Part shown: positions 1,954 to 44,237 of the stretch, piece by piece
Layout of the letters: every line of letters starts with the position of its first letter
Position numbering within the stretch: position 1 is the first letter of the stretch
Assembly (NCBI RefSeq): GCF_017875275.1
Contig: NZ_JAGGML010000001.1
Span: 1,738,501 to 1,802,500, forward strand
DNA from: Xanthobacter flavus
GTDB lineage: Bacteria > Pseudomonadota > Alphaproteobacteria > Rhizobiales > Xanthobacteraceae
Length of the DNA stretch: 64,000 nt
Direction of reading: 5' to 3'
The notes under the pieces: generated by a model
Database searches by the model: none
Told to the model about the DNA's origin: nothing
What the model saw: only the letters and a program-made list of their open reading frames with translations
Made by a program: the position numbers and the translations under genes

Positions 1954-2118
1954 TCACGGATCGGACCGTAGCAGCCACAGAACCAGAACGATGCCGCCCG
2001 CAAGTGCAAGAAAGAAGAGCACGGAGACGATGGCCCCGCCCACGCTTTCCGCGCCGGTGAGGTCACCGAGAAAACGAAGCAGTCCCAGGATGCCCTGCGT
2101 CCCGCTGGCGCCCGGCAC
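1954..2118 (-). CDS. Small one-TM membrane protein at the end of the signalling operon
   Basis: This short open frame encodes 54 residues from a GTG at 2118. It has a polar N-terminal half (about residues 1-25) followed by one hydrophobic helix (AIVSVLFFLALAGGIVLVLW) and a short charged tail ending RSDP. It begins 11 bases after the stop of the STAS gene and runs in the same direction, which suggests it is the last gene of the leftward operon. No strong ribosome-binding site is seen before the GTG. I recognise no family. The clean transmembrane segment is the main argument that it is coding. Confidence 0.4.
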   Translation of the reverse strand: MPGASGTQGILGLLRFLGDLTGAESVGGAIVSVLFFLALAGGIVLVLWLLRSDP

Positions 2119-2129
2119 GGCCGCCGGCG

Positions 2130-2432
2130 TCAGTTGATCTCGAACAGGGTCGAGAAACCGGAGATGTCGAACACCTCGCGGATCTGCGGCTGGAGCGAGG
2201 ACAGCGCAAGCTTGCGCTTCGCCCCGCGCATGGCCTTGCCGGCGACGAGAAGCGCGCGCAGGCCGGAGGAGGACACGTAGTCCACGCCGGCAAGGTTCAC
2301 GACGATTCCCCCATCGGTCATGGAGACGACCTCCATGAGGCTCGCCTCGAACGGCTTGGCATTGGGCGTGTCGAGGCGCCCCGCCACCTTCAGCACCACG
2401 TCGCTTCCGACCTGCTCACGCTCGATGTGCAT
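2130..2432 (-). CDS. STAS-domain anti-sigma factor antagonist (RsbV/SpoIIAA-like)
   Basis: The product is a 100-aa single STAS domain. Proteins of this family bind an RsbW-type kinase when unphosphorylated and release its client; phosphorylation of a conserved serine switches this off. The switch segment reads DYVSSSGLRALL, aligning with the DSSG motif of SpoIIAA, with the phosphoacceptor serine kept and the preceding Asp replaced by Ser. The gene overlaps the end of the upstream transporter gene by 17 bases, so the two are probably translationally coupled. The kinase partner is probably the ATPase encoded at 4184-4627, and the opposing phosphatase the SpoIIE-type protein at 11303-13354. Confidence 0.88.
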   Translation of the reverse strand: MHIEREQVGSDVVLKVAGRLDTPNAKPFEASLMEVVSMTDGGIVVNLAGVDYVSSSGLRALLVAGKAMRGAKRKLALSSLQPQIREVFDISGFSTLFEIN

Positions 2433-4137
2433 CGGCCTCTACTCGCTTGATGTCCGCCCCGGAGGCGGCCGGACGATCCCGATTATCCTCATTCTCGGGC
2501 GCACGCAACGCAATCGCGCTGCGGCGCACCAGCCAGATCGCCCGCTCGAACAGGCTGGTCGCCAGCAGCAGCTGCCGCGCGTCCGAGCCGGCGTCGAGTG
2601 CCGTTGCGGCAAGCTGCCGGCGGATGCGATTGAGCATCTCCGATCGATCGCCCGCGAGCGCGATGATCAGGTCGAGGTCTTCCCCGGGCCCGTCGGTGGC
2701 GTCGGCGAGGGAGAGCGTGATGGCGCGCAGCGATTCGGACAGGGCGAAAGCGAGCGGCGGCACCTCGTCGAAGCCCTCCACCACTTCGGTGAAATCGTGC
2801 AGCGTGTCCTGCAGGATGCGCACGTTCTCCACCAGCGACTGATGATGCAGCGCCACCTCCAGGCTGTCCCGGGCGAGGCCGGCCGCGATCAGCTCGGCCA
2901 CGAACTGGTCCACCGCCAGTCCCACGGAGGCCGCACCGCGCCACAGGGCCAAGCGTTCGTCGGCAGCGTCGGTTTCTGTCTGGTCGAGGTCCGGCAGCAG
3001 CGTCGGCAACAGCTTCACCAGGCGCAGGGTCTCGCTGATCGCAAGGTCGAGCGCGGTGATCGGGTCGGCCAGCGCCTCGTCGTGGATGAAGCGTGGCCGC
3101 GCTGCGCCATCCTCCACCGTGGGCGGGCTAAGCGCCGCGACGATCCGCTCCGTGAGGCCCCGGGCGAAGGCGACCGGTAGCGCGCCTGCCACCTGCAGAG
3201 TCAGAAACAGGAGCGAAAGCGAAAGCGACGCCTCGCCCCGGCCCAATTGGTCGAGGGCCGCAAGCGCGTCGCGGCCGAACAGGGGCGCAAGCAGCACGGC
3301 CCCGCCCACGACCGCGCAGCCCACCATCTTCACCAGCACATGCACGTAGCACAGCTGGCGGCCGGTGCCCCTCAAGGCTCCGGCGGAGATGACCGCCGCG
3401 AAACCGGAGCCGAGATTGGCGCCCAGAACGATGCACAGCGCGTCGTCGAGCCCCAGCAGTCCGGTCTGCATCAGCGCGAGCACAAGGATGGTCGGCGTCG
3501 AGGAGGACTGGCTGATGGTGGACGCCACCAGGCCCAGGATGAACCCAACGAGCGGCGTGACCCCTGAATCGAGATTGAGCGCCAGAGCGGCGACGTCGAG
3601 CGCCCGCGGCGCCTGCTTGATGAAATCCAGCCCCAGCAGCACGAGGACGAGGCCCAGGGCGACGCCCATCCATTCGCCCATGCCCTGGCGGCGATCGAGG
3701 CGGAAATGGAACCCGATACCGACGACGCCGACGAGATAGAGCACCAGCAGGCGGAAATCGATCGCCGCCACGAACACCAAAGCGGAAGTGCCGATGTTGC
3801 CGCCCGCCACGATGGGGATGGCATCGCGCGTGGTGAAGGCATTGCCCCGCACGAGATTGCCGCTGATCACGGCAACGGCGTTGGACGATTGGGTCGCTGC
3901 TCCCGCCAGCGTGCCGCACAGAAGGCCCGTGACAGGCGAGCGCGTGGCCCGGCGCAACAGCCCGCGCACCTTGCGGCCGGTCGCCTGCTGAAGGTGGGTC
4001 GACATGGCCTTGAGGCCAACAAAAAGAAGGCCAAGACCGGCCATCAGCTCGGCAATGACGAGCATCGAAGGAAAAATCTCCGCGGTACCTGGGAACGCCG
4101 CGGGCACGCTCAAGGTTCCCGGCTCCGGCTCTCTCAT
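2416..4137 (-). CDS. Na/Pi cotransporter family membrane protein with PhoU-like C-terminus
   Basis: The 573-aa protein belongs to the NptA/YjbB family of sodium-phosphate symporters. The N-terminal half contains the two inverted repeats with the QSS signatures (GAATQSSNAV and STISQSSSTPT) and about eight membrane helices. From about residue 330 it continues as a soluble helical region resembling PhoU. The open frame begins at 4137; a second ATG at about 4065 just before the first helix is an alternative start. Its position between an RsbW-like kinase and a STAS protein is unusual and suggests that it is a target or a sensor of the switch. That link is inference. Confidence 0.85.
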   Translation of the reverse strand: MREPEPGTLSVPAAFPGTAEIFPSMLVIAELMAGLGLLFVGLKAMSTHLQQATGRKVRGLLRRATRSPVTGLLCGTLAGAATQSSNAVAVISGNLVRGNAFTTRDAIPIVAGGNIGTSALVFVAAIDFRLLVLYLVGVVGIGFHFRLDRRQGMGEWMGVALGLVLVLLGLDFIKQAPRALDVAALALNLDSGVTPLVGFILGLVASTISQSSSTPTILVLALMQTGLLGLDDALCIVLGANLGSGFAAVISAGALRGTGRQLCYVHVLVKMVGCAVVGGAVLLAPLFGRDALAALDQLGRGEASLSLSLLFLTLQVAGALPVAFARGLTERIVAALSPPTVEDGAARPRFIHDEALADPITALDLAISETLRLVKLLPTLLPDLDQTETDAADERLALWRGAASVGLAVDQFVAELIAAGLARDSLEVALHHQSLVENVRILQDTLHDFTEVVEGFDEVPPLAFALSESLRAITLSLADATDGPGEDLDLIIALAGDRSEMLNRIRRQLAATALDAGSDARQLLLATSLFERAIWLVRRSAIALRAPENEDNRDRPAASGADIKRVEADAHRA

Positions 4138-4183
4138 CCCAGCCGGCTACCATACTCCCGGACTACGACACTCTCGTGAGGGG

Positions 4184-4627
4184 TCACACGGCCGCGTTGG
4201 CGACCAGCGTCAGCTGGTTTTCCTCGCCCTCGCGGCTGTAGTCGAGGGCTTCCAGGAAATGGCGCATCAGCTGCACCCCGTGGCCGCCGATCTTGGCATC
4301 CTCGATGCTGTCGGGCACCTCCGGCTCGGCGATGCCGGTGGGATCGAAGGGCACGCCATTGTCGATCAGACGCACAGCGACCCGCCCTTCGGGCAGCTGC
4401 CAGCACTCGATGCGGATGTGCGGCGGCCGTTCGCTGCCCACGAAGCCATAGGACACGACATTGGTGAGCGCCTCCTCGAGGCTTAGCTCCAGCGCGAAGC
4501 GTGTCGCGTCCGGCCAGCCGTGTTCCTCGGCCAGCGCGCCGAGCCACCCGGTGGCTTCGGTGATGTCGTCGATGCGCGCGCCCACATCGATGGTCGAGAC
4601 AAGGGTTCCGGCCGCGGGCGTCGCCAT
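4184..4627 (-). CDS. RsbW-like serine kinase / anti-sigma factor (HATPase_c_2)
   Basis: The product is a 147-aa GHKL-fold ATPase of the RsbW/SpoIIAB type. The N box is visible as EEALTNVVSYGF, the G1 box as DNGVPFDP and the G2 box as GGHGVQLMRHF. Such proteins phosphorylate STAS antagonists and sequester a partner, classically a sigma factor. A STAS gene lies 11 bases upstream (4639-4989) and another downstream (2130-2432), giving one kinase with two candidate antagonists. No sigma factor is encoded in the window, so the protein it holds is unknown. Confidence 0.9.
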   Translation of the reverse strand: MATPAAGTLVSTIDVGARIDDITEATGWLGALAEEHGWPDATRFALELSLEEALTNVVSYGFVGSERPPHIRIECWQLPEGRVAVRLIDNGVPFDPTGIAEPEVPDSIEDAKIGGHGVQLMRHFLEALDYSREGEENQLTLVANAAV

Positions 4628-4638
4628 GGGATCCGCCG

Positions 4639-4989
4639 TCAGGTTGCCGGGGAGACGCCCGCCGCCGCGAGCGCCTCGTCCCGCGTGGCGTGGATGCCGA
4701 CCAGTTGGTCGACGCCGGTGGCCCGAAGCACCTTCTCCACCTGGGGATCGCAGGCGAACAGCCCCATGGTGCCGCCCTTGCGATGCAGTCCCTTGGCGCC
4801 CGCCAGCAGAAGGCGGATGCCGATGGAGGCCATGAACGGCGTGCCGGAGAGGTCGACCACAAGTACGCGGGCGGCCTGGCAGGACGACTTGAATTCCGGC
4901 TCCACCGCCGCCGCGCCGGCAATGTCGAGGCGGCCCTCGAGGCGCACGAGGATGATGTCGGGGCCGAGCGGGGTCCTCTCGATCTTCAT
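4639..4989 (-). CDS. STAS-domain protein, second antagonist with altered switch site
   Basis: From the ATG at 4989 this is a 116-aa single STAS domain; a longer frame to 5178 has no support as coding. The switch loop reads TPFMASIGIRLLL, which keeps the central serine but replaces the usual Asp before it by Ala and the Ser after it by Ile. It may therefore be phosphorylated differently from its operon partner. It is followed 11 bases later by the RsbW-like kinase and is separated by about 100 bases from the upstream acetyltransferase gene, so an internal promoter is possible. Confidence 0.86.
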   Translation of the reverse strand: MKIERTPLGPDIILVRLEGRLDIAGAAAVEPEFKSSCQAARVLVVDLSGTPFMASIGIRLLLAGAKGLHRKGGTMGLFACDPQVEKVLRATGVDQLVGIHATRDEALAAAGVSPAT

Positions 4990-5092
4990 GGGCCAGTTTC
5001 TCTCTGGATCGGGACGCCCGCGCGATGCGGGCACAGATTCAGCAAACCATACGACAGTTTCGTGACGCGGAGCAGAGGCCGAAAGTGCCCTC

Positions 5093-5767
5093 TCAGGCGC
5101 TCCGGGGACGGGCGTAAAGCACGCCGGCAGCGCCGGAATCGGTGCGGCAACGGGCGTAGCCGTGCCAGCCCTCGGCAAACAGCTCCTTCTGACGCGGCGT
5201 GTCCAGAGGATCGACCAGCAGCGTCTCCTGCGGATCGAAGGTGGTGAAGTCGCGCACCATCACATAACGCGCATAGCCGCCGAAGAAGAGCTGGATGTCA
5301 TAGATGGGAAAGCCTTCGGCAAGCAGGCTCGCCCAGCTCGGCGTGTTCACCGGCGCGGCGGTGGAGAACAGCACCATGTCGGACGGCGCGGCCATGACGC
5401 GAGCGGCGATCAGCACCCGCTGCAGCCCGCGCCCGCGATAGGCCGGATGCACCGAGGCGCCCGCGAGACGTCCCACCGCACGGGCGGGATCGAGCCCAAG
5501 CAGCCGGTGCGGCCCGTCCTTGGGCGAATGGTCGTGCTGAAGGATGCCGTAGGCGACCAGCAGCGCGTCGTCATACAGCCCGATGATGTGGCCGCGGCCG
5601 CCGAGGATGCTTTCGAAATAGGACCGGTTCTCCGGCTTCACCACTTCGGGCCGCACCAGGGGGCCGATGGCAAGATGATGAAGGGTGTCGATCGCGTCGA
5701 GATCGTCTGGCCCGAGCATGCGCTGCGTCAGCGTAGAGGTCGGTACGGCCTCGCGCAGGGCGTTCAT
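5093..5767 (-). CDS. GNAT-fold acetyltransferase
   Basis: The product is about 224 aa. The acetyl-CoA-binding motif A is visible as ASVHPAYRGRGLQRVLI at roughly residues 105-121, which identifies the GNAT fold; the substrate is not predictable. The ATG at 5767 overlaps the stop of the upstream binding-protein gene in a TGATG arrangement, so it is translationally coupled to it. A GTG three bases earlier in frame is an alternative. Its place in a sensing operon suggests a regulatory or small-molecule-modifying role, but nothing in the sequence proves this. Confidence 0.82.
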   Translation of the reverse strand: MNALREAVPTSTLTQRMLGPDDLDAIDTLHHLAIGPLVRPEVVKPENRSYFESILGGRGHIIGLYDDALLVAYGILQHDHSPKDGPHRLLGLDPARAVGRLAGASVHPAYRGRGLQRVLIAARVMAAPSDMVLFSTAAPVNTPSWASLLAEGFPIYDIQLFFGGYARYVMVRDFTTFDPQETLLVDPLDTPRQKELFAEGWHGYARCRTDSGAAGVLYARPRSA

Positions 5768-6840
5768 CACGTGATTACTTCCGCATAATTGAGCATGGCG
5801 ATGGGCGGATAGACACCGAGCTGCTTGGCCACGTTCATGTTGATGATGAGCGCGAAGCGCTTGAGCGTCTCGATGGGGATGTCTCGTGGCGGCACGTGCT
5901 GGACGAGGATCTCAACCGCCTTGGAGGCGGCGAGCTGGCCCACGGAATAATAGCGGCTGACCAGCCCGACAAGCCCCAGCCCCTCGCGCAGGAAGAACTC
6001 CGTAGCCCCGAACGTGGGCAGCCCCGCGGCGAGCGCGGCCGGGCCGACCCGATCGAAGATGGTGGCGAGGAAGGTATCTGCGGGCAGGTAGAGCCATTCG
6101 GCGCCCTGCGCCTTCAGGTTCCTCACGAATTCCTCCACCCCGTCGCCGGTCGGCTTGTTGCCGACCATGGTGAGGGGCTGCGTCAGCACCTCGGCGCCGA
6201 TGGTGGCGGAGAAGGCCTTCATCTCGTTGATGATCGCGACGGAGTTGCTCTCGTTCGGCGAATAGATGACGCCGACCTTCCTGAACGCCTTGTAGCTCTG
6301 CATGGCGCGCATCTGCACGTCGGTCGGCACCACATGCACCGCGCCGGTCACATTGCGCCCCGAGGAGGCGAGAGAAGGGGCGATCTTCACCTGCACCGGC
6401 GCCGCGACCAGCGCGAAGACCACCGGAATGTCCCGCACGAAGCCGGCGGTTGGCGGTGCGTCATACGGACCGGCGACGCCCAGCGTCAGCGGCGTGCCGT
6501 AGGTATAGATGAGGTTGGGCCGGAAGCTGGGCAGCACCTCCGCGAGGATGGGCTTCACGCGGCTCGCGTCCCGCTCCACGTCGCGGGTCATGAACTCGAC
6601 CTTGACGTCATTGGCGGCGAAATAATCCCGGAAGCCGCGCTCCACGTCGGTATCGCCGCGGAAGGTCAGCATCAGCACGCGGAACGGTTCGCCATTGGCC
6701 GCGGCAACGGGCGCAGGCGCCCCGGCGGGACGGGGCTGGCCATTGCCGCCATTGGTCTGCGCGAAGGCGCCGGGGACGGTACCCACCAGCCCCGCGGCAC
6801 CCGCGCCGAGGCCGAGTGCGAGGAGGGAACGGCGATCCAT
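5767..6840 (-). CDS. Periplasmic substrate-binding protein, ABC_sub_bind (TrpX-like) family, orphan
   Basis: The 357-aa protein has an N-terminal signal of twin-arginine appearance (MDRRSLLALGLGAGAAGL, then AFAQ) and a mature part of the family found with TrpXYZ-type importers (IYTYGTPLTLGV, VVFALVAAPVQV, VGVIYSPNESNS). No permease or ATPase gene is adjacent. The start overlaps the stop of the sensor-MFS gene (TGATG) and its own stop overlaps the next gene in the same manner. Without transport partners it most likely delivers a ligand to one of the periplasmic sensor domains of this locus, which is inference. Confidence 0.87.
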   Translation of the reverse strand: MDRRSLLALGLGAGAAGLVGTVPGAFAQTNGGNGQPRPAGAPAPVAAANGEPFRVLMLTFRGDTDVERGFRDYFAANDVKVEFMTRDVERDASRVKPILAEVLPSFRPNLIYTYGTPLTLGVAGPYDAPPTAGFVRDIPVVFALVAAPVQVKIAPSLASSGRNVTGAVHVVPTDVQMRAMQSYKAFRKVGVIYSPNESNSVAIINEMKAFSATIGAEVLTQPLTMVGNKPTGDGVEEFVRNLKAQGAEWLYLPADTFLATIFDRVGPAALAAGLPTFGATEFFLREGLGLVGLVSRYYSVGQLAASKAVEILVQHVPPRDIPIETLKRFALIINMNVAKQLGVYPPIAMLNYAEVIT

Positions 6841-8825
6841 CAGGCGGAACTCCCTTCCGAGGCGGCCGCGGAGGACGCGCGCCGCGAATGATGGACGAAG
6901 ATTCTGCGTCCGGATAGCGCAAATAGCATAGCCCCGGCTACCGCCACAGCACCGAGAAAACCCGTAGCCGACGCAAAGCCGAGGGTCGAAAGCAGGAAGC
7001 CGGCGCTCGCCGGACCGGCGGCGTTTCCGGAGCGCTCCACCAGCCGGAAAAGGCCGAGAACGCCGGCCGCGCGGCCGGCGCCCATGCTGGTCGCGGTATC
7101 GGCTACCAGCGCCGACTGGGAGGCGATGGACATGGCTTGCCCCCACCCCAGCGCGACCAGAGCCACCACGATCAGCGCCACGGAGGGGTGGAGCAGCACC
7201 GCCATGGCGCCGATGCCCGATACCAGCCCGCCCGCCACCACGAAGCCCGCGCGGGCGCTGAAGCGGTCCGCGAGGGCGGCGAAGAAGGGCACGCCGATCA
7301 CCATCAGCACCGGATAGATCATCTGGAAACGGCCGATGGCCGCAGAGGAAAAGCCCTCGCGCTGCAGTTCCAGCGGCACGAGCAGGAAGCACAGGGCGGC
7401 GAACAGGAACTTGGCCGGGAAGGCGCAGCCGAGCAGCAGGGACATCAGCCCCGGTGCGCGGGCGGCCGCCTTGAGATCGGCCAGTCCCACGTTGGCGACT
7501 GCGCGATGACGCGCCGCGGCGGGGAGCGTCAGGCGGGCCACGAGAAGCGCCACGAGGGCAAGGCCGGCGGAGGTGCCGAAGGCGACGCCCGGCCCCAGCC
7601 GGTCGGCGATGACGCCGCCGATCGGCGGGCCGCACAGGCTCGCCACCATGATGGCGCGCACGAACACGGCCAGCGCCGCACTGCGGGCGGCGCCGGAGGA
7701 GAGGTCCACCACATGTCCCTGCGCGGACACGAACACCAGCGCATAGCCGACCGCCGTGGTGACGCGGGCGGCGAGGAAAACGTCGTAATGCGGGCTGATC
7801 GCCGAGACCACGTAGCCCGCCGCCGCCAGCGCCGCGCCCGCGATGAAGCCGGGGCGGCGGCCGAGCCGCTCGGACAGGGAGGCGAAAGGTACCTGGCACA
7901 GCGCGACGACCGCCATGAAGGCGACGATGGGCAGGCTCGCCGCCATGTCGGGACCGTAGCCGGCCGGAACGCCCAGCGCCTGGGCCGCGCGCGGCAGGAA
8001 GGGCCGGGTAAGTTCCTCCGCCAGCATGAAGAGGAACAGCGCCGGGCGCACCGCGATGGCGGCCTCGCTCTCGGCCGCCTGGACCCGGCCGAGCCCGGTG
8101 CGGACCTCGATTTCATCCAGCCGCGCGATCGCCTTGGCATCGCCTCGGTGCTCCGCCTCGGCGCGCAACGCGAGATGGCGCTCCGCGAGGGTTTCCACGT
8201 GGCGGTCGATGGGCAGGATCAGGTCGCCGGCCGCGCCGCCGCCGCCATCTTGCCGGGAGAGCACGCCGCGCTTCAGCGCCTTCAGCCGCCGCTCCACCGC
8301 CACCAGCGATTCGAGACCGCGGGTGCCGACGACCAGGGCGACGAGCTCCAGCGCCACAAGCAGCGCGACGATGCCGATGAAGGCCACGTCCACCAGCACG
8401 GCGCCGACCTGCTGGGAGACGACGCCGGGATCGACCACGATCATCACGTCGCCGAGGCGGCGGCCCTCGGAATCCTGAACAGGGACCATCACCCGGGGGG
8501 CATCGCCGCCGGCCGGCGCGTCGCCCGACCGCGCCAGTTCCTTGCCGCCGGCCGCGTTGAGGCTGATCTGGGTGAACTCGACGTTGGCGGCGCGCAGCTC
8601 ATCGAAATAGCGGTTCACCCCCACCAGGCGGTCGAACGGCACCCCCACGGAGGCGGCGCGCTGCACCAGGTCGGCGGCGGCGCGACCCACGGAATTGGCT
8701 TTGGCGACGATCTCCGGCGCGATGGTGCGCTGGGCCGCCTGCTCGGAGCCCCAGCCGATCACCGCCAGCGCCGAGCACAGGATGATGACGATGGCGATGG
8801 AGATGCCGCCGCGCAGGCCGATCAT
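6840..8825 (-). CDS. Fusion of a periplasmic sensor module to an MFS transporter
   Basis: From the ATG at 8825 the protein has 661 residues. Residues 8-25 form a first membrane helix, about 26-140 a periplasmic domain related to the other sensors here (QRAASVGVPFDRLVGVNRYF), and 143-167 a second helix. A charged, probably coiled-coil cytoplasmic linker spans about 170-255. From about 258 to 645 it is a major facilitator superfamily transporter, with SERLGRRPGFIAG as the loop 2-3 signature. The start overlaps the upstream stop (ATGA). A frame continuing to 9008 is only the shadow of the preceding gene. A sensor joined to a transporter is an uncommon architecture. Confidence 0.87.
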   Translation of the reverse strand: MIGLRGGISIAIVIILCSALAVIGWGSEQAAQRTIAPEIVAKANSVGRAAADLVQRAASVGVPFDRLVGVNRYFDELRAANVEFTQISLNAAGGKELARSGDAPAGGDAPRVMVPVQDSEGRRLGDVMIVVDPGVVSQQVGAVLVDVAFIGIVALLVALELVALVVGTRGLESLVAVERRLKALKRGVLSRQDGGGGAAGDLILPIDRHVETLAERHLALRAEAEHRGDAKAIARLDEIEVRTGLGRVQAAESEAAIAVRPALFLFMLAEELTRPFLPRAAQALGVPAGYGPDMAASLPIVAFMAVVALCQVPFASLSERLGRRPGFIAGAALAAAGYVVSAISPHYDVFLAARVTTAVGYALVFVSAQGHVVDLSSGAARSAALAVFVRAIMVASLCGPPIGGVIADRLGPGVAFGTSAGLALVALLVARLTLPAAARHRAVANVGLADLKAAARAPGLMSLLLGCAFPAKFLFAALCFLLVPLELQREGFSSAAIGRFQMIYPVLMVIGVPFFAALADRFSARAGFVVAGGLVSGIGAMAVLLHPSVALIVVALVALGWGQAMSIASQSALVADTATSMGAGRAAGVLGLFRLVERSGNAAGPASAGFLLSTLGFASATGFLGAVAVAGAMLFALSGRRIFVHHSRRASSAAASEGSSA

Positions 8826-9490
8826 GCGGCGCCCCCATCCGGAAGGCCCGCGCCAGGCGACCGCGTGTTCCGGTGCGCTTCCTCCACGGAGGCGAGCGCG
8901 GCGCGGGCGGCCGGCGGCCACAGGCGCGGCTCGGCGGCCCGGCGCACGGCCCGCTGCAGCAGCGCGGCGAGGAGCAGGCCGATGACGAGGGTTGCCGCGC
9001 CGGCCCACAGCAGGGTCGGAAGCGCGATGCGCCGGAGGTCCGCCGCGAGCGCCGCCGAACCGTTGGTCAGGATCGCGCTGTCATAGCGCACCACCACGCG
9101 GCCGAGGCTCTGGCCGATGTCGTTGCGCACCGGACGTGACAGGCCGCGCTCGTGGTCCCGGGCCGTATCGAGGCCGACGCGCCCGGGCTCGCTGGAGAAC
9201 AGCACGATGCCTTGCTCGTCCGTCAGGTCCATGGAGCGAATCGCATCCTCGACGCGGGATTCGCGCTCCAGCACAGCCGTCAGTGTCTGCTGCGCAGGAA
9301 GAGCAATGCCCAGCGAGGCCGCCTTTTCCACCACGTCCACCACCCGCTGCGCGGCGATGCCGCATCGGGCCTCGATGACACTGCGATGGGCGTTGATGAG
9401 GGTGACATAGGAGAAATAGGCGCCGAAGGCGACGCACGCGGCCGCGATCAGCGCGAACACGATGATGAGCCCCAGTGTGGTCCGCCTCAT
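8822..9490 (-). CDS. Two-TM periplasmic sensor protein without output domain
   Basis: The 222-aa product has a membrane helix at about residues 7-29, a periplasmic domain of about 125 residues and a second helix at about 160-180, then a short cytoplasmic tail of some 40 residues. The periplasmic part contains EKAASLGIALPAQQTLTAVL and DLTDEQGIVLFSS, matching the equivalent segments of the neighbouring sensors. There is no kinase, cyclase or phosphatase domain. It is the first gene of the leftward operon and overlaps the sensor-MFS gene by four bases. It probably assembles with another sensor or with the phosphatase; this is inference. Confidence 0.78.
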   Translation of the reverse strand: MRRTTLGLIIVFALIAAACVAFGAYFSYVTLINAHRSVIEARCGIAAQRVVDVVEKAASLGIALPAQQTLTAVLERESRVEDAIRSMDLTDEQGIVLFSSEPGRVGLDTARDHERGLSRPVRNDIGQSLGRVVVRYDSAILTNGSAALAADLRRIALPTLLWAGAATLVIGLLLAALLQRAVRRAAEPRLWPPAARAALASVEEAHRNTRSPGAGLPDGGAA

Positions 9491-9733
9491 GACCCTTCGC
9501 GCTCGACCTTTCGCGCCGCCCCTCGCGCCGGCAGCCGCGCCCCCGGCGCACGGTCCGATCCAGCGCTGGAAATCTGCGCCTTAACCTTGGGGCGTGCCCC
9601 GACCGCCCGACCTTCATGCCACGAAAACAAAGCTGACAATGCAGGTTTTTTTGGTCGCAGTGGAGTTTTTTGTCTGGTTTGGCCGCGAGCGCGCGGTTAA
9701 CGTCCGGCCGTCCACGCCACCGAAGTTCCCCGC
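9491..9733. promoter_or_regulatory. Divergent promoter region of the signalling locus
   Basis: This 243-bp gap separates the two arms of the sensor locus and must contain both start sites. Part of it (9647-9675) is T-rich, with two T-runs (7 and 6 bases) each followed by a GT-rich segment about 19 bases apart. I see no clear sigma-factor consensus. The arrangement implies coordinated expression of both arms. Confidence 0.45.
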
Positions 9734-10480
9734 ATGACTTTCGTAAGCCGGCTCATCCTGGTCGCCGTCGTGTCCGTGACCGCTGCGGTGGTGGCGGTCG
9801 CGGGGATCGCGTTCTCGGCGAGCGACCGGGTGGGCGAGGAGATCGAGCGTGCGCGCGTCGCTAACCTGCTCGGAACGCTGCGCGCCTCCACCGAGGCGAA
9901 CCTCTCCATCGGCCTGCAGCTCGACCAGGTTTCCCTGCTGCAACCGCGCATCGAGCGCGAGAAGGCGGGCGACCCCTCCATCCTCGCCATCGACATCTTC
10001 AATTCCGCCGGCCGCGCCATCTATTCGACCGACCGCAGCGTGATCGGCGAGGAGGTCAGCCCGGACTGGGTGAAGCGGCTGGGCGACGACAACCAGTGGG
10101 CGACGGCAGAGCGCGGCGACACGGTATTCGGCACGCGATTCGAGAACGATCTCGGGGTGGCGGGCGGCATCTCCGTTACCGTGTCGGACGAAGCGCGCAG
10201 CGCCCGCGCCGACCGGCTGGGCCTTGATCTCCTGATCCGCACCGGAGTTCTTTCGCTTGCCGCCTCCATCGCCGCGATCATCGCCGCATTTGCGTTCGTC
10301 CACATGCTGACCCGCCCATTCGACCGGGTGACGCGGGTGCTGCGCGGCGAGGGCGGGCCTCCCGCCGACGACGGCGGCCTCACCCCCCTCGCCGAGGCTA
10401 CCGTGAAGAGCTGGCGGGAGGCCGAGGCGCGGGTGGATCGCGGCCTCGGCCAGTTGGGAGCACTCGACGATGCGGCCTGA
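9734..10480 (+). CDS. Two-TM periplasmic sensor protein, first gene of rightward arm
   Basis: The 248-aa protein has a membrane helix at about residues 5-28, a periplasmic domain to about 160 and a second helix at about 168-192, followed by a short HAMP-like tail. The periplasmic part has GLQLDQVSLLQPRIEREKAG and AIDIFNSAGRAIYSTD, comparable with the other sensors of the locus. No output domain follows. Its last 11 bases overlap the next gene. I infer a role as ligand-sensing subunit for the phosphatase two genes downstream. Confidence 0.78.
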   Translation: MTFVSRLILVAVVSVTAAVVAVAGIAFSASDRVGEEIERARVANLLGTLRASTEANLSIGLQLDQVSLLQPRIEREKAGDPSILAIDIFNSAGRAIYSTDRSVIGEEVSPDWVKRLGDDNQWATAERGDTVFGTRFENDLGVAGGISVTVSDEARSARADRLGLDLLIRTGVLSLAASIAAIIAAFAFVHMLTRPFDRVTRVLRGEGGPPADDGGLTPLAEATVKSWREAEARVDRGLGQLGALDDAA

Positions 10481-11303
10481 GATCGCCGAGAGCGGCCGCG
10501 CCCGCCTCATGACGGGTCTGTTCGCGCTCATCCTCACCCTCGTCCTCGGCGGCATCGCCGCCGCCGTGCTCATCAACGGGTACCGCGCCCGCGTCGAGGA
10601 GAGCGCCCGCCGCGACGCGCTGGTGATCGGCACGTCGGTGGCCCGCACCCTCGCCCAGCAGTTCGAGAAGGCGGCCCGCTTCGGCATCCCCCTGAAGCTC
10701 CTGCCGGGCGTGGAGCAGCATCTCTCCGAGACCCTGACGCGCACCCCCGGCCTCACCCAGATCGTGCTGCGTGGATCGGACGGGCGCGAGATCCGCAGCG
10801 CCATCGGCGAGCATTCCGGCGCTGATTCGGTGAGCGCGCCGGTGGTGGTGGACAACAACACGGTGGCCTCGGTGGAAGTCACCACCAATCCCGCCGCCCT
10901 CGCCGCCTCCTTCGCCGATATCGGCCTCAAGGCGGCGGTGGTGGTCACGGTTTGCGCCGCTCTGGCGGCCCTGGTCGCCGGCCTTCTGGTGGGCAACGCG
11001 CTGGAGGGCGCCCGCGCCCGCCTCGCCAAGGGCCTCGCCGAGGCGGTGAACGGCCATTTCGGCGAGCGCGATGCGATGCACCCGCACGGCCGTCGCCAGG
11101 GCACCCGCGGCGCGGTGGGCCGGGCCTTCCGGGAGCTTGAGCACGGCAACCGCAGGGTCGCCGAGCGTCGCTCCGTCTTCGAGGCCTATGCGGAGGAACT
11201 GCTGGCGGTGGATTTCGACGGCGGGCTCAGACCCGATGTGGAACGCGTCCGGCGCGAGGTGCTGGCGCCGCCCGGCCGCGCCGACAAGGTGCGGGGGTCG
11301 TGA
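10470..11303 (+). CDS. Two-TM periplasmic sensor protein, second gene of rightward arm
   Basis: The 277-aa protein has helices at about residues 15-36 and 148-172 around a periplasmic domain containing EKAARFGIPLKLLPGVEQHL and IVLRGSDGREIRS. These segments closely resemble those of the leftward-arm sensors. The cytoplasmic tail of about 100 residues is charged and may form a coiled coil, but shows no enzymatic motif. The start overlaps the previous gene and the stop overlaps the phosphatase start (TGATG), so the three rightward genes are one coupled operon. Confidence 0.8.
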   Translation: MRPEIAESGRARLMTGLFALILTLVLGGIAAAVLINGYRARVEESARRDALVIGTSVARTLAQQFEKAARFGIPLKLLPGVEQHLSETLTRTPGLTQIVLRGSDGREIRSAIGEHSGADSVSAPVVVDNNTVASVEVTTNPAALAASFADIGLKAAVVVTVCAALAALVAGLLVGNALEGARARLAKGLAEAVNGHFGERDAMHPHGRRQGTRGAVGRAFRELEHGNRRVAERRSVFEAYAEELLAVDFDGGLRPDVERVRREVLAPPGRADKVRGS

Positions 11304-13354
11304 TGCTGCTGCGCACCCGCATCACCCTCATCGTCGCCACCGGCTTCACCTTGCTCATGCTGGGCATCTGGGGCGCTACGGTGCTGCGCGACCGCGTCGC
11401 CCAGGCCCGCGAGGGCGAGCTGGCCATCGAGGGACAGACCGTCCTCTGGCGGGAGATCGTCGCCTTCCAGACCGCCAATCTCGCCCGCATCCTGGAGCGC
11501 ATCGACAGTTCCTCGCCGTTCCGGATCGCGCTGGGCTTCTCGGATCGGTCGGGCATCGCCGCGGCCATCCGCGAGGTGGGCATCGATATCGACGATCCCG
11601 CCACCTATTTCGAGGTGGTGGCCGCCGACCGCGAGGTGGTGTTCAGCGACAGCTCCACCAATGCCCGCTACATCCTGGACGCGGGCAGCCTCGACCGTGC
11701 CCTCAAGGGCGAGATTCTCTCCGGACTGCGCCAGATCAGCGGCTCGCAGGTGATCGTCATCACCACCCGCACCGTCGATCTGCCCGGTCTCGGACGGGCG
11801 GTGCTCGTGCTCGGCCGCGATGCGGCGCTCGGGATGGACCGCTTCGCGCGCGGCATCAGCGCCGCCACCACCCTCATCACCCTGCGCGGGCGGGTGGTCG
11901 CCAGCAGCGATTTCCGCCTGTGGGAACGGGCGAAGGTGTCCATCACACCGCGCCGGCCCACCGCCGAGCAGCTGATGCTGGACGGGCGCAACTACAACGT
12001 GACCTCCATCCCCATCGCCGACGTGAGCGGCAGCGCCGTGGGCGCGCTGGTGAGCCTCGAGGACACGACGCAGACGGTGCAGGCCACCGCCCTCATTCGC
12101 CAGTCCGCGGTCGCAGGCGCGATCGTCCTCGTCCTGCTCGGCGTCGTCGGCCTCAATGTCTTCCTCTGGTACAGCTTCCGGCCGCTGGAATCGGCCATCG
12201 ACGTGCTGCAGGCTCTCTCCCGCGGCGACACCTCGGTGACGGTGGGTCATGCCGGCAATGACGAGATCGGCCGCATCGCCGCGGCCGTCGTCGCGCTGCG
12301 CGGCAATGTGCAGGCCCTCGCCGAGAGCCGGCGCCAGCGCGAGCGCGTGCGGCGGCGGCAGGAGGTGGTGATCTCCGGCGAGTTGCAGGCGCTGGCCGAC
12401 GCCATCGATCCGACCGACCGCGAGGAGGTTCTGGCCCTGCTTGCAAAGGGCGAGGAGAGCGAGAACGACGACGAGCTGAAGCGCGTCGCCCGCGTGCTCC
12501 ACGACCTCTCGCGGCGGATCGTCGAACAGCATACCCGCCTCTCGTCCATGGTGGTGGAGCTGCGCGAGGCCCTCATCACCAAGACCAAGCTCGCCGGTCT
12601 CCAGCAGGAACTGGAGATCGCCCGGCAGGTGCAGCTCGCCATCCTGCCCAAGGAATTTCCGCCGGATGCGCGCGTCGCCGTGCACGGCCAGATGACCCCC
12701 GCGCGCGAGGTGGGCGGCGACTTCTACGATTACTTCATGATCGACGACACCACGCTCGGCTTCGTGGTGGCGGACGTCTCCGGCAAGGGCGTGCCGGCGG
12801 CTCTGTTCATGGCCATCTCCCGCACCCTGCTGCGCTCCACCGCGCTGTTCGAGCGCTCACCGGCGGGCTGCATCCGCCGCCTCAACGACCTGCTCGCGGT
12901 GGAAAACGAGCAGATGCTGTTCGTCACCGTGCTCTATGGCGTGGTCGACCTCTCCTCGGGGAAGGTCACCTATGTGAATGCCGGTCACAATCTGCCCTAC
13001 CGCATCGCCCGCTCCGGCGAAGTGACGACCGTTCCCTCCACCGGCGGCATGGCGGTGGCCGTGCTGGAAGGCTTCGTCTACCAGCAGCACGAATTGCACC
13101 TCGCGCCCGGCGACGCGCTCTTCCTCTATACGGACGGCGTGACGGAAGCCTTCGACATCGACGAGCAGCCCTACGGCGAGGAGCGCGTGGAGGAGCTGCT
13201 GCGCAGCGGCGCTGCCGACTGGTCGGTGGAGGAGCTGAACGAGCGGGTGCTGGCAGCGGTGCATCTCTTCGAGCGCGGCGCGCCCCAGGCCGACGATATC
13301 ACCTGCCTGACCCTGCGCTATTTCGGCGGCCACGGCCCCCGCCGGACACGCTGA
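11303..13354 (+). CDS. Membrane-bound SpoIIE/RsbU-type serine phosphatase with sensor and HAMP domains
   Basis: The product is about 683 aa: a membrane helix at 5-27, a large periplasmic region (about 30-265), a second helix at about 272-292, HAMP at about 293-340, a linker and a PP2C-type SpoIIE phosphatase domain from about 432 to the end. The metal-binding motifs are visible: REVGGDFYDYF, VADVSGKGVPAALFMA, LYTDGVTEA and ADDITCLTLRY. Such enzymes dephosphorylate STAS antagonists, so its substrates are likely the STAS proteins of the opposite arm. The ATG overlaps the upstream TGA; a GTG one codon earlier is an alternative. Confidence 0.92.
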   Translation: MLLRTRITLIVATGFTLLMLGIWGATVLRDRVAQAREGELAIEGQTVLWREIVAFQTANLARILERIDSSSPFRIALGFSDRSGIAAAIREVGIDIDDPATYFEVVAADREVVFSDSSTNARYILDAGSLDRALKGEILSGLRQISGSQVIVITTRTVDLPGLGRAVLVLGRDAALGMDRFARGISAATTLITLRGRVVASSDFRLWERAKVSITPRRPTAEQLMLDGRNYNVTSIPIADVSGSAVGALVSLEDTTQTVQATALIRQSAVAGAIVLVLLGVVGLNVFLWYSFRPLESAIDVLQALSRGDTSVTVGHAGNDEIGRIAAAVVALRGNVQALAESRRQRERVRRRQEVVISGELQALADAIDPTDREEVLALLAKGEESENDDELKRVARVLHDLSRRIVEQHTRLSSMVVELREALITKTKLAGLQQELEIARQVQLAILPKEFPPDARVAVHGQMTPAREVGGDFYDYFMIDDTTLGFVVADVSGKGVPAALFMAISRTLLRSTALFERSPAGCIRRLNDLLAVENEQMLFVTVLYGVVDLSSGKVTYVNAGHNLPYRIARSGEVTTVPSTGGMAVAVLEGFVYQQHELHLAPGDALFLYTDGVTEAFDIDEQPYGEERVEELLRSGAADWSVEELNERVLAAVHLFERGAPQADDITCLTLRYFGGHGPRRTR

Positions 13355-13595: not shown

Positions 13596-14804
13596 ATGTC
13601 CATAGACGCACGCGCGGCCGGCTGGCCCGCGGCCGAGGTTTCCTCCATCGGCGCCGTCTGTAGCGCCCACTTTTGCAGCCATTTCCTCCAGCTCGCCCTC
13701 ACCCCGCTGTTCATCATGATGCGGGCCGACCTCCAGGTCTCCTTCATCGAGCTGGGGCTGTTGCTCTCCGTCTTCTATCTGTTCTCGGGCGCCGGGCAGG
13801 TGGCCGCCGGCGTGCTGGTGGACCGCTTCGGCGCTGACCGCCTGCTGCTCGCCGGCATCCTCACCCAGGGCGCCGCGACGGCGGCCATGGGCATCGCGCC
13901 GAGCTATGTGCTGCTGCTGCCCCTCGCCGCGCTCGCGGGCCTCGGCAATTCGGTCTACCACCCGGCCGACCTCTCCATCCTCAGCCACAAGGTGGCGGCG
14001 CCCCGGCTCGGGCGGGCCTTCGCCGCCCATGTGATTGCCGGAAGCATCGGCTTCGGCCTGTCGCCGATCGTGTCGGGCGCCATCGGCGCGCATTTCGGCT
14101 GGCGCACGGCGCTCATCGCCATGGGGCTGCTGGTGGTGCTGATCGGGCTTCTGCTCGCGGTCTTCCGGGGCCCCTTGCGCGCGCCAGCTGGACGCGCGGC
14201 CCATGCGGCGGCGGGGGGCACACCGCACTCCTTCCTCGATGTGCTGGCCATGCCCGTGGTGCTGATGGCCTTTCTCTATTTCACCCTCACCGCGGTCGCC
14301 CTCTCGGGCATCCAGAGCTTCTCCATCGTCGCTCTGCAGGAAGGCTTTGGCGCGGCGGTGGCGCTGGCGACGCTGGCGGTGGCGCTGTTCCAGGTGGGCA
14401 ACACGGCGGGCGTCGCCATCGGCGGGCATGTGGCGGACCGCTCCACCCAGCACCACCAGATCGCCATGAGCGGCCTTGCTGCCGCTGCCGCCTTCGGTTT
14501 TCTCGCCGCCTGGCTTCAGGCGGCACCTGAAGTGACGGTTGGTCTCATCGCCTTGGTGGGTTTTTGCATGGGCCTCACCACCCCCTCGCGCGACGTGCTG
14601 GTGCGCAGCGCGGCGCCGGCGGGCGCCACCGGCAAGGTCTTCGGCATCGTCTATTCGGGCTACGACATCGGCTCGCTGGTGGGACCGCTGATGTTCGGCC
14701 TGATGCTCGACCATCACCACCCGCGCATGGTGTTCGTGGGCGCCGCCGCCGCATTGGCCCTCGCGGTCGGAACCGCCTTCGCAGTGCGCCGCCGGCCAAC
14801 CTAG
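13596..14804 (+). CDS. MFS transporter, fosmidomycin-resistance (Fsr)-like
   Basis: The 402-aa protein has twelve predicted membrane helices and a major facilitator signature (GVLVDRFGADRLLLAG). The segment GLGNSVYHPADLSILSHKVA is typical of the Fsr/YbfB-like drug exporter group, in which an H-P-A-D/N motif is conserved. The substrate cannot be told. It lies alone between the signalling locus and a convergent dehydrogenase gene, with a strong terminator hairpin downstream. Confidence 0.85.
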   Translation: MSIDARAAGWPAAEVSSIGAVCSAHFCSHFLQLALTPLFIMMRADLQVSFIELGLLLSVFYLFSGAGQVAAGVLVDRFGADRLLLAGILTQGAATAAMGIAPSYVLLLPLAALAGLGNSVYHPADLSILSHKVAAPRLGRAFAAHVIAGSIGFGLSPIVSGAIGAHFGWRTALIAMGLLVVLIGLLLAVFRGPLRAPAGRAAHAAAGGTPHSFLDVLAMPVVLMAFLYFTLTAVALSGIQSFSIVALQEGFGAAVALATLAVALFQVGNTAGVAIGGHVADRSTQHHQIAMSGLAAAAAFGFLAAWLQAAPEVTVGLIALVGFCMGLTTPSRDVLVRSAAPAGATGKVFGIVYSGYDIGSLVGPLMFGLMLDHHHPRMVFVGAAAALALAVGTAFAVRRRPT

Positions 14805-41459: not shown

Positions 41460-42269
41460 GTGACTTTCAGGACAGGATTTTTTGCCGGCTTCCTCGCCCT
41501 CTCGGCGCTCGGCGCCGCCCTGCCCGCCATGGCGCAGCAGGAGACGGCCTACGACCGGGTGGGGCGCTGGTCCATCACCGTCGTCAATGACGGCAACCGC
41601 TTCGGCTATTGCGCCGCCGACGTGGACAATGGGAAGGTGCAATTCCGCATCGGGACGGACGGAAAGTCTTGGCAGATCGGCGTGCCTTACTATGGCAACG
41701 TCTCTGGTCCCCTCGATGTCTATTACGGCTTCGGCGGCGCGGCGGAGATGGGCACCTTCCATGCGGAAGGGGACGGCTGGGCCTCCATGATGATCAACAA
41801 TGATCAGCTCAACGCCTTCAGAACATTGCCAGAATTCTCGGTGAACCTGGACCGCGGGGAGCAGACCTTCAAGCTCGCCGGAGCCGCACAGGCCATCGAC
41901 AAGGCCCGCGAGTGCGCGCGCAACAAGGGCCAGAAGGCCTCCCCGCCCCCGCCGGCCCCGCAGCAGAACGCGACCAACGGCAAGAATTGCCCGCCCTTCG
42001 GCACCGTCCGCTCGCAGAACAGCAAGGCACCGGTGAAGGTGATGTTCGTGAATCTCTCGAAGGTTCCGCTGAACATCATGTGGATCGACTTCAACGGCGA
42101 GTGGAAGAAATACCACACGCTGGCGCCCAATTCCAACGTCACCCAGTCCACCTTCGGCACCCATCCCTGGATTGCCGTGGACTCCCGCGGCACCTGCCAC
42201 GGCGGCGTCATGTACGGCAACCCCGCCTCCCGCACGGAGGGGGATAACATGTTCCAGATCTGGGACTGA
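41460..42269 (+). CDS. Secreted protein with C-terminal VHL-beta-like domain
   Basis: The 269-aa protein has a clear signal peptide ending AMAQQ. The first mature domain (about 28-155) has WSITVVNDGNRFGYCAADV and is of unknown type. After a proline-rich linker (about 160-175), residues 195-262 read like the beta domain of the von Hippel-Lindau protein: VKVMFVNLSKVPLNIMWIDF, then a YHTLAPNSN turn and FGTHPWIAVDSRGTC. GTG 41460 is preceded by GGGAG. A hairpin follows the gene. Target or ligand of the VHL-like domain is unknown. Confidence 0.75.
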   Translation: MTFRTGFFAGFLALSALGAALPAMAQQETAYDRVGRWSITVVNDGNRFGYCAADVDNGKVQFRIGTDGKSWQIGVPYYGNVSGPLDVYYGFGGAAEMGTFHAEGDGWASMMINNDQLNAFRTLPEFSVNLDRGEQTFKLAGAAQAIDKARECARNKGQKASPPPPAPQQNATNGKNCPPFGTVRSQNSKAPVKVMFVNLSKVPLNIMWIDFNGEWKKYHTLAPNSNVTQSTFGTHPWIAVDSRGTCHGGVMYGNPASRTEGDNMFQIWD

Positions 42270-42288
42270 GGAGAGGCCGACGCGACCG

Positions 42289-42320
42289 CCCCGGCATGGC
42301 CTGACCGGCCCATGCCGGGG
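42289..42320 (+). terminator. Hairpin after the VHL-like gene
   Basis: A 14-bp GC-rich inverted repeat (CCCCGGCATGG... with ...CCATGCCGGGG, short TGAC loop) begins 20 bases after the stop. It lacks a proper T-run, so it may be a weak terminator or a palindromic repeat. Confidence 0.5.
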
Positions 42321-42440
42321 GTGTTTCACCGGGTTTCCGGTGGGGATATCGGCGGGGTTCGGGAGGCGGTTCGGGTGGGAGTCAGGGGAATGGGTGGCTG
42401 CGGCGGCCATTCTGCATTATAATACCATCAAAATCTCCGT

Positions 42441-42705
42441 GTGGCCTACGACGAGATCCGCTTCGATCCGGCGGTGCTGAGCGGCAACGAGACCCTGCTG
42501 CTGATAGCGGCGCGAGAGGGCATGGGCCTCGCCTTCCTGCCGCGGGTGATCGTGGAGGACGACCTCGCCGCCGGCACGCTGGAGCATCTCCTGCCCACCG
42601 CCCCCACCCCCTCCGCCCCCTCTACGCCATCTACCCCAACCGCACCCACCTGCCCGCCAAGGTGCGGACGTTCTGGATTTTCTGGTGGAGGAGGGGTGGT
42701 GAGGG
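42441..42705 (+). pseudogene. Remnant of a LysR-family regulator (C-terminal part, frameshifted)
   Basis: The fragment encodes the end of a LysR effector-binding domain. One frame gives GNETLLLIAAREGMGLAFLP and IVEDDLAAGTLEHLLP; after a C-rich stretch near 42600 a second frame continues with LYAIYPNRTHLPAKVRTF; near 42672 a third gives LDFLVEEGW and a stop. So two frameshifts are needed and the DNA-binding half is missing. It borders the AT-rich island, whose insertion may have removed the rest. Confidence 0.75.
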
Positions 42706-42750
42706 ACTCACGCCAAGAGGCCACGCCCGCACGACGGGAAAACCCGCCCC

Positions 42751-43776: not shown

Positions 43777-44237
43777 CACATAGCGCTCCACGCAGCAAGA
43801 GCAGCCGACCGCTCACTATTTGTCCAATTCGGAGCATGTACCCCAAAGACCAGATCAGCCGAGCTGTACTTGTCTCCATCCCAGACCGCACTTCTATTTT
43901 GGAAAAATTTCTTCGAGAAATTGGCGATTATAGCCTCCGAACACTTTCGGCCTGAGCTGATCGAAAGCAAGTTAAGAGCGCCGTACGGCATTATTAATCC
44001 AGCTATTTGATCTTGACTATTAGCATTCATTGTGAGCAGATATGCAACACTGTCAGGATTGTATAAATTTAATATACTTTCAAATAAATTATATGCGTTC
44101 CTCACAAATTGGGGCCGATCATCCAGCAACTGAAGCGGACGTCTGTCATGGGTAAAAACAGTCGGCGCGCTGCGGCTACCGTCAAGAACCACAAATCGCA
44201 GAATGCCCTTAGAGGAATGGAACCCGATTGAACGCAT
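43776..44237 (-). CDS. Small RNase H/RuvC-fold-like protein, partner of the kinase
   Basis: The 153-aa protein is AT-rich and coupled to the kinase gene. Its beginning (IGFHSSKGILRFVVLDG) looks like the first strand pair of an RNase H/RuvC-like fold, and the tail (DLVFGVHAPNWTNSERSAALAAW) resembles the closing helix of small RuvC-like families such as DUF3010. The usual acidic catalytic residues are not convincingly present, so it may be a binding rather than a nuclease protein. I do not recognise a named family with confidence. The weak AGG before the ATG is the only ribosome-binding hint. Confidence 0.7.
   Translation of the reverse strand: MRSIGFHSSKGILRFVVLDGSRSAPTVFTHDRRPLQLLDDRPQFVRNAYNLFESILNLYNPDSVAYLLTMNANSQDQIAGLIMPYGALNLLSISSGRKCSEAIIANFSKKFFQNRSAVWDGDKYSSADLVFGVHAPNWTNSERSAALAAWSAM

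Follow-up and report, generated by a model that had tools for sequence, protein, structure and literature searches.

A partner switch with a membrane sensor array in Xanthobacter flavus, and a Na/Pi-PhoU protein as its candidate output

Partner switching in Bacillus is carried out by the RsbU-RsbV-RsbW and SpoIIE-SpoIIAA-SpoIIAB proteins. The window analysed here, a stretch of 64,000 nucleotides covering positions 1738501-1802500 of the 5.35-Mb chromosome (a single contig) of Xanthobacter flavus, contains between its positions 2130 and 13354 a locus encoding proteins of this kind, together with membrane sensors, a binding protein and a Na/Pi-cotransporter (Na/Pi) protein, and without any sigma factor among the profile matches of its products, thus raising the question of what such a switch may control. 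The answer put forward here, with about even confidence and on the basis of sequence comparison, is an RsbU/V/W-type partner switch that would be driven from the periplasm and would have the Na/Pi protein, which carries a PhoU-like domain, as its output. The features of the locus are as follows (profile name and match value in brackets).

2130-2432, minus strand: STAS1, RsbV/SpoIIAA-like antagonist of 100 aa (PF01740, 1.5e-16)
2416-4137, minus strand, start at 4137 or 4065: Na/Pi-cotransporter protein with PhoU-like C-terminal domain (PF02690, Na_Pi_cotrans, 3.9e-36)
4184-4627, minus strand: RsbW/SpoIIAB-like HATPase kinase of 147 aa (PF13581, HATPase_c_2, 3.4e-20)
4639-4989, minus strand, start inferred within the open frame 4639-5178: STAS2, second antagonist (PF01740, 7.8e-16)
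5093-5770, minus strand: GNAT-like acyltransferase (PF00583, 18.6 bits, under the cut-off of 20.7)
5767-6840, minus strand, start read at 6840: orphan periplasmic binding protein, PF04392/TrpX-like (PF04392, ABC_sub_bind, 1.4e-22)
6840-8825, minus strand: sensor-MFS fusion with periplasmic PAS/Cache-like domain, HAMP-like linker and MFS domain (MFS_1, 2.5e-31)
8822-9490, minus strand: sensor without output domain (two predicted transmembrane segments; homologous to 9734-10480, hhalign 99.8)
9491-9733, no strand: intergenic gap between the divergent arms, holding a conserved block upstream of 9734 (alignment of 12 sequences)
9734-10480, plus strand: sensor without output domain (two predicted transmembrane segments; homologous to 8822-9490)
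10470-11303, plus strand: sensor homologous to the sensor-MFS N-terminus (two predicted transmembrane segments; hhalign 99.6)
11300-13354, plus strand: sensor-HAMP-SpoIIE phosphatase of 684 aa (PF07228, 5.2e-51; PF00672, 5.1e-7)
13596-14804, plus strand, 241 bp after the phosphatase gene: MFS transporter distinct from the fusion, conserved as a neighbour within the family (PF07690, 5.9e-46)

Judged by their residues, the switch proteins appear intact. With identical sequences merged and score limits of 95 (STAS1), 140 (STAS2), 70 (kinase) and 250 bits (SpoIIE), Ser54 of STAS1 was kept in 46/46 distinct sequences and Ser58 of STAS2 in 9/9, the latter all from Xanthobacter loci; both serines are equivalent to SpoIIAA Ser58. 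Glu52, Asn56 and Asp89 of the kinase were kept in 60/60 distinct sequences and Gly114/115/117 in 59 of them (a gap in the remaining one), while Asp474 and Asp492 of the SpoIIE domain were found in 71/73, the other two being gaps. The sequence marks of an RsbU/V/W-type module, i.e., metal-binding Asp in the SpoIIE phosphatase, phosphorylatable Ser in the STAS proteins and ATP-binding motifs in the HATPase, are all present. STAS1 shares 72-92% identity across nine loci of the family (L070-L078), and STAS2 passed model TIGR00377 (58.2 bits, cut-off 53.45). The kinase retrieved no match among solved structures and, at E 1e-6, only itself within its own genome. One further SpoIIE gene, encoding a cNMP_binding-SpoIIE protein, lies 1.5 Mb away (L079:9478-10860, near 3315492) and adjoins an Ion_trans_2 channel gene; Pfam search of its 118-aa neighbour was uninformative.

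The Na/Pi protein is favoured as the output because proteins of its type are repeatedly linked to RsbW-like kinases outside this cluster. Linkage was assessed independently of the sensors, by a Na/Pi search of 289 genomes of the class that gave 11 places outside the own genome, ten of them evaluable (G873 was dropped at a contig end), and by a separate kinase search of the same seven genomes that gave nine kinase places. In 6/10 places and in 4/4 evaluable families, the distance between a Na/Pi gene and an RsbW-like kinase gene was at most 10 kb, with nearest gaps of 86, 86, 263, 1005, 5754 and 9386 bases; 0.06 were expected under random placement (tail 1.2e-11; by family 7e-9). The link is also supported by L203, where STAS-kinase is followed by the Na/Pi gene and then by a response-regulator (RR)-SpoIIE gene, without sensor-MFS. 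That the Na/Pi protein might be just a housekeeping copy of the ordinary kind was rejected on a tree of 31/45 sequences, in which six ordinary paralogues form a separate branch (100/100) and the other 25 rows contain 19 linked and 6 unlinked proteins, intermixed. Ordinary paralogues (own genome's included) also showed no switch gene, either within 1.5 kb (0/8) or in the wider flanks of L211 and L212 (0/2). In L225 (6158-12392) and L226 (6581-12787), the Na/Pi gene stands 86 bases from that of the RsbW-like kinase; L225 also has a dCache-HAMP-MCP gene and a GPP34-domain gene beside STAS1.

As to the protein itself, it scored 90.7 bits with the Na/Pi symporter family model NF037997 (cut-off 50), whose members, Na/Pi cotransporter II-related, are presumably of the YjbB type, and 113 bits with TIGR00704, under the cut-off of 210.1. 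Like NF037997 proteins with a PhoU domain, it has a PhoU-like C-terminus; unlike the ordinary copies, it lies outside their branch and its relatives are often found near switch genes. Its AlphaFold2 (AF2) model (pLDDT 85) has a helical C-terminal domain, its PhoU-like part running from about residue 335, which was aligned over about 200 columns with the PhoU structures 1t72, 1t8b, 2i0m and 1sum (TM-score 0.62-0.68, normalised by target; probability 0.93-1.00). No match of the model reached E <= 0.001, so that the PhoU assignment draws on several PhoU chains recurring at high probability and moderate TM-score, and not on the E-values, which are weak. This domain is a plausible cytoplasmic docking site.

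The gene inventory drawn up in the earlier note was borne out across 2130-13354 by profile matches and transmembrane predictions. Its four two-transmembrane sensor modules were also recovered (three stand-alone, one at the N-terminus of the MFS protein), but the phosphatase carries a two-transmembrane periplasmic region of its own, which makes five sensor-like inputs. Six of the nine within-arm borders do overlap; the statement that most do so by one to four bases was, however, too generous, applying to four of the nine (depending on the start codons), with two further overlaps of 11 and 17 bases. The other three borders, all in the left arm, are gaps of at least 46 (Na/Pi/kinase), 11 (kinase/STAS2) and about 100 bases (STAS2/GNAT), and the right arm makes the better case for a single co-translated unit. 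The picture of two single units around one divergent promoter gains from the conserved block in 9491-9733, but loses from the left-arm gaps and from a promoter and terminator scan, which stayed at shuffle level and gave no promoter-like match.

The conservation of the locus was followed at several depths. The sensor-MFS protein, 96% identical to that of Xanthobacter sp. YC-JY1 and 95% to that of X. aminoxidans, was found in 21/199 genomes of the order, i.e., its own, 12 with sensor and MFS parts covered, two covered in part and six with the MFS part only, four of the latter being followed in full (L161-L164) and two left out (G024, G036). Matches in 12/398 genomes of the phylum (own included), some to the MFS part only, indicate a thin spread. 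The kinase was matched in 15/61 genomes of the family, strongly in ten (own included), and therefore the locus is patchy within the family.

Comparison of 23 related regions, 14 from the sensor-MFS search and nine from the kinase search, showed both divergent arms (sensors with SpoIIE; sensor, sensor-MFS and binding protein) together in 20. The exceptions are L068 and L069, with a one-direction cluster, and L073, cut by a contig end; among the 20, neither kinase nor STAS was matched in L064, and STAS went unmatched in the part of L060 that was examined. Na/Pi genes were present in 9/9 regions of the family (L070-L078) and 0/14 others, and alanine racemase genes in 9/23. Elsewhere in the order, the kinase and STAS1 genes come after the GNAT or racemase gene, in the opposite direction. 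A scan of genome_contigs from 84,980 species retrieved 112 relatives, 80 of which were kept, from Xanthobacter, Azorhizobium, Aquabacter, Mesorhizobium, Chelatococcus, Jiella, Albimonas, Acuticoccus, Azospirillum, Thalassospira, Comamonas, Rhodocyclaceae, Competibacteraceae, Thiotrichales and others, covering alpha-, beta- and gammaproteobacteria. Because both arms are kept together in 20/23 regions and relatives occur across three proteobacterial classes, the locus is, as far as its conservation tells, no chance neighbourhood.

Gene counts were made on those 60 of 81 loci that have 8 kb on each side; the 21 with shorter flank, the window's own locus among them, were dropped. Small sensors and the binding protein were each found in 59, GNAT in 52, SpoIIE in 46, the kinase in 39, STAS in 33, alanine racemase in 20, Na/Pi in 16 and a class III cyclase in seven, with the full set of sensors, sensor-MFS, binding protein, GNAT, SpoIIE, kinase and STAS in 29. 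Na/Pi genes belong to 13 Xanthobacteraceae and three betaproteobacterial loci and cyclase genes to seven other alphaproteobacterial ones; none of the 60 has both, and neither does any lineage group. The two-armed switch with several sensors that the earlier note had proposed is thereby upheld as a conserved locus. Arms standing apart, which the note had named as a reason to abandon the idea, are mostly not seen in the 23 regions, but are so, in part, in the Azospirillum-type loci described below.

What would feed the switch was examined at the level of the single input proteins. The three stand-alone sensors and the sensor-MFS N-terminus are mutually homologous, with cross-pair values of 97.5-98.1 beside those of the two closest pairs (8822 with 9734; 10470 with the sensor-MFS N-terminus). 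Because the sensors fall into these two pairs, each arm would consist of a small sensor plus the sensor-MFS or its remnant, and the arms look like an inverted duplication. Indeed, in many relatives the 10470-type protein is a sensor joined to an MFS-like membrane domain: 29 long open reading frames (ORFs) were listed, all four that were checked have 11-13 transmembrane segments, and the set matches MFS at hhalign 96.9 over 167 columns. The right-arm copy is short in Xanthobacteraceae and in betaproteobacterial loci such as L100, L101 and L106. A THDPS_N_2 match in sensor 10470-11303 was under its own cut-off and was disregarded.

In the sensor-MFS protein, transmembrane segments of the N-terminus were predicted at residues 1-31 and 128-173, the latter being split in two by a simple scan. 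In its AF2 model (pLDDT 88, pTM 0.82), a long helix and a periplasmic PAS/Cache-like domain of five strands are followed by a HAMP-like linker and the MFS domain, which is helical. As the fold-search matches listed were transporters, the sensor fold, with its single long helix and five strands, was taken from secondary structure. VMAT2, MdfA, NorA and SotB, which are exporters and vesicle transporters, are among the best matches listed, and because the nearest solved folds include exporters, export would be the direction of transport. The binding protein has 3lkv, 3lft and 6hni as solved relatives and, as its sole NCBIfam match, TrpX (NF041285; 89.8 bits against a cut-off of 390, residues 120-354); it differs from TrpX-type proteins in this low score and in its setting, as no ABC permease or ATPase was found among the genes of 2130-13354. 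GNAT gave no match among solved structures, and the PF00583 cut-off was passed by 6/10 of its relatives' copies.

The same input proteins occur with other partners. Azospirillum-type loci contain sensor, sensor-MFS, binding protein, GNAT and then an ATP-grasp gene (13 loci have one of this type), while profiles for SpoIIE, the kinase and STAS matched nothing within 9.5 kb in 10/10 of those with enough flank; a 735-aa minus-strand ORF of Azospirillum, uninformative in Pfam, is probably a shadow of the opposite-strand ATP-grasp gene. In L161-L164 and L172, a D-Ala-D-Ala-ligase-like ATP-grasp gene stands beside a sensor-MFS with two tandem sensor-like regions (frames of 810-860 aa; 1066 aa in L172), with the binding protein recognised in L161, L162 and L172 and not in L163 and L164. 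Output neighbours, scanned in L161-L163, were PAS-GGDEF-EAL proteins in L161 and L163 (the latter cut by the contig end) and a PAS histidine kinase in L162. Type VI secretion genes adjoin the sensor-MFS/binding-protein pair in L166 (8228-14925) and L167 (8339-14970), where it directly precedes VgrG, and in L169 (8297-14515), where it lies beside TssH. At L146:13118 and L148:13118, also beside sensor-MFS and binding protein, SpoIIE and RsbW-like kinase profiles match within a single ORF.

A neighbouring position is by itself no proof that a gene serves as an output. Because it adjoins histidine kinase, GGDEF-EAL or type VI secretion genes elsewhere, we read the sensor-MFS/binding-protein pair as a putative exchangeable input module, to whose side GNAT belongs, since it follows the pair even without the switch. 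GNAT and sensor-MFS were both rejected as switch outputs for occurring without it. Of the output candidates named beforehand, the cotransporter is favoured (linkage in 6/10 places) and the acetyltransferase is not. Racemases, ATP-grasp ligases and acyltransferases commonly have amino-acid-like substrates, and because genes for all three are neighbours, an amino-acid-like metabolite is proposed as the ligand. Simple motif patterns, which miss some variants, found the lysine motif in 26/30 and the tyrosine motif in 28/30 of the cluster alanine racemase ORFs, a count in which one gene is split in two and some genes appear in both locus sets.

Taken together, the mechanism would run as follows. 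The level of an amino-acid-like metabolite in the periplasm would be read by the binding protein together with the sensor domains, of which one is fused to a DHA1-like exporter; GNAT would modify this metabolite and the MFS domain export it. The two-transmembrane sensors might assemble with the HAMP-SpoIIE protein into mixed complexes and control its activity by way of HAMP and a coiled coil. The RsbW-like kinase would phosphorylate the conserved serine of STAS1 and STAS2 and the active phosphatase would remove the phosphate, a chemistry suggested by the active sites. Free STAS protein would bind either the kinase or a target, the likeliest target in this lineage being the Na/Pi-PhoU protein, encoded between the kinase and STAS1. 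What is controlled would then be no sigma factor but the transport of phosphate or anions across the membrane, as the repeated linkage suggests. The effector slot may change, with a class III cyclase beside or fused to the kinase in some lineages, while the switch stays.

Non-sigma outputs are known from two precedents. RbaVWY of Rhodobacter capsulatus resembles the present locus as a partner switch of an alphaproteobacterium; no sigma client was found for it, and RbaV is dominant in its genetics, while no MFS-fused sensor, binding protein or Na/Pi protein is described with it in the text consulted (PMC3999984). SiaABC of Pseudomonas controls aggregation jointly with the diguanylate cyclase SiaD (PMC7647112, PMC8457831). 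The SiaABCD system of Pseudomonas aeruginosa resembles the locus in having a phosphatase, a kinase and a STAS-like target and in being tied to a non-sigma protein (PMC7647112). Membership in it was rejected: the phosphatase scored 67.2 bits against the SiaA model NF038263 (cut-off 700), the input differs, and no GGDEF domain was found among the products of 2130-13354. With the Bacillus Rsb/SpoII switches the locus shares the SpoIIE-type phosphatase, STAS proteins with a conserved serine at the phospho-site and a GHKL kinase with conserved ATP-binding residues, whereas a membrane sensor array, an exporter-like MFS and a binding protein as input, a Na/Pi protein and the lack of a sigma factor in the locus set it apart. 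No description of a transporter output or of an MFS-fused sensor input was found in the literature searched, most subscription papers being outside the search, and we regard the locus as a previously undescribed variant of partner switching.

Several points weigh against the Na/Pi protein as output. The 10-kb limit behind the 6/10 linked places was set post hoc, random placement was assumed although real genes are not so placed, and several of the genomes come from just two genera; a 2-kb limit leaves only 4/10 places linked, since in two of the six the genes are 5.8 and 9.4 kb apart. No switch gene was found near the Na/Pi homologues L227, L229, L230 and L233, nor near L204/L205, and among six further loci where the kinase match is weaker, just L203 has a Na/Pi gene. 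The nine Na/Pi regions of the family came from the kinase search and are not independent evidence for the link, and the ordinary paralogues were mostly checked in shorter flanks. Finally, 44/60 sensor-MFS loci lack Na/Pi, which is thus not needed for the input. This last count also suits an output at a distance, which might be a sigma factor, a cyclase or, as in RbaVWY, a STAS target of unknown kind, with Na/Pi as a co-regulated or co-inherited neighbour, and to this we assign an appreciable, if minor, chance. The precedent of RbaVWY and the cyclase genes point the same way: in 8/80 named loci a class III cyclase holds the place beside the kinase that Na/Pi has in Xanthobacteraceae, four times as a separate neighbour (L104, L108, L111, L113) and four times fused to the kinase N-terminally (L056:4077-5729, L057:13763-15424, L058:13572-15287, L059:14037-15746). 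A distant output fits less well with the Na/Pi gene lying near an RsbW-like kinase in all four evaluable families, and a SigB/F/G-type client was rejected. Indeed, the absence of a nearby sigma factor, remarked on at the outset, extends to the whole genome for this type: model TIGR02980 gave three matches, none over the cut-off (best 135.8 against 234.35 bits), ECF and other sigma classes not having been searched, and the matches, in frames of 713, 339 and 275 aa, would by their length be RpoD- and RpoH-like.

Local feedback, in which the switch would regulate the sensor-MFS exporter and GNAT while Na/Pi only balances ions or phosphate during export, has the common locus, the overlapping genes and the homology of the sensors to the MFS-fused domain in its favour. 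We consider it improbable, since sensor-MFS, binding protein and GNAT occur without switch genes in the Azospirillum-type loci, and also beside other signalling genes, and so look upstream of the switch. A mere island of membrane and regulatory genes, loosely assembled and without a common function, would account for the three gapped borders of the left arm and for racemase, cyclase and Na/Pi varying by lineage; given the same divergent layout in 20/23 regions across families and relatives in three classes of proteobacteria, it is very hard to credit. Returning to the Na/Pi protein as output, a bolder version of it, which we think rather unlikely, would make the sensor-MFS/binding-protein pair a portable chemical-signalling cassette. 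Neighbour enzymes (GNAT; alanine racemase or ATP-grasp ligase by lineage) would make a small amino-acid or dipeptide signal, the sensor-MFS would export and gauge it, and the orphan binding protein would present it to the sensors, with an exchangeable output (partner switch, histidine kinase, cyclic di-GMP enzymes or type VI secretion loci); in Xanthobacter, the switch would gate the Na/Pi-PhoU transporter directly, placing an ion or phosphate transporter under phospho-switched control by an RsbW-type kinase.

Around the locus, the MFS transporter gene at 13596-14804 is probably outside the switch; counterparts were found in 12/14 Xanthobacteraceae loci and 0/46 others. On the other side, genes for elongation factor P (EF-P) and an EpmA-like protein of the class II tRNA-synthetase type adjoin the locus (82-1916), as they do in other Xanthobacter loci. 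Farther off in the window, GC content falls to 0.524 at 42001-44000, against 0.66-0.72 in the other 2-kb steps, a possible foreign insert.

To our knowledge, many proteobacterial RsbW-type kinases have no known client, and the recurrent pairing of this kinase family with one transporter family supplies a named candidate. In the sensor-MFS/binding-protein pair we appear to have a sensory input not described before, which adjoins several kinds of signalling output, and the enzymes encoded beside it point to an amino-acid-derived ligand, open to biochemical search.

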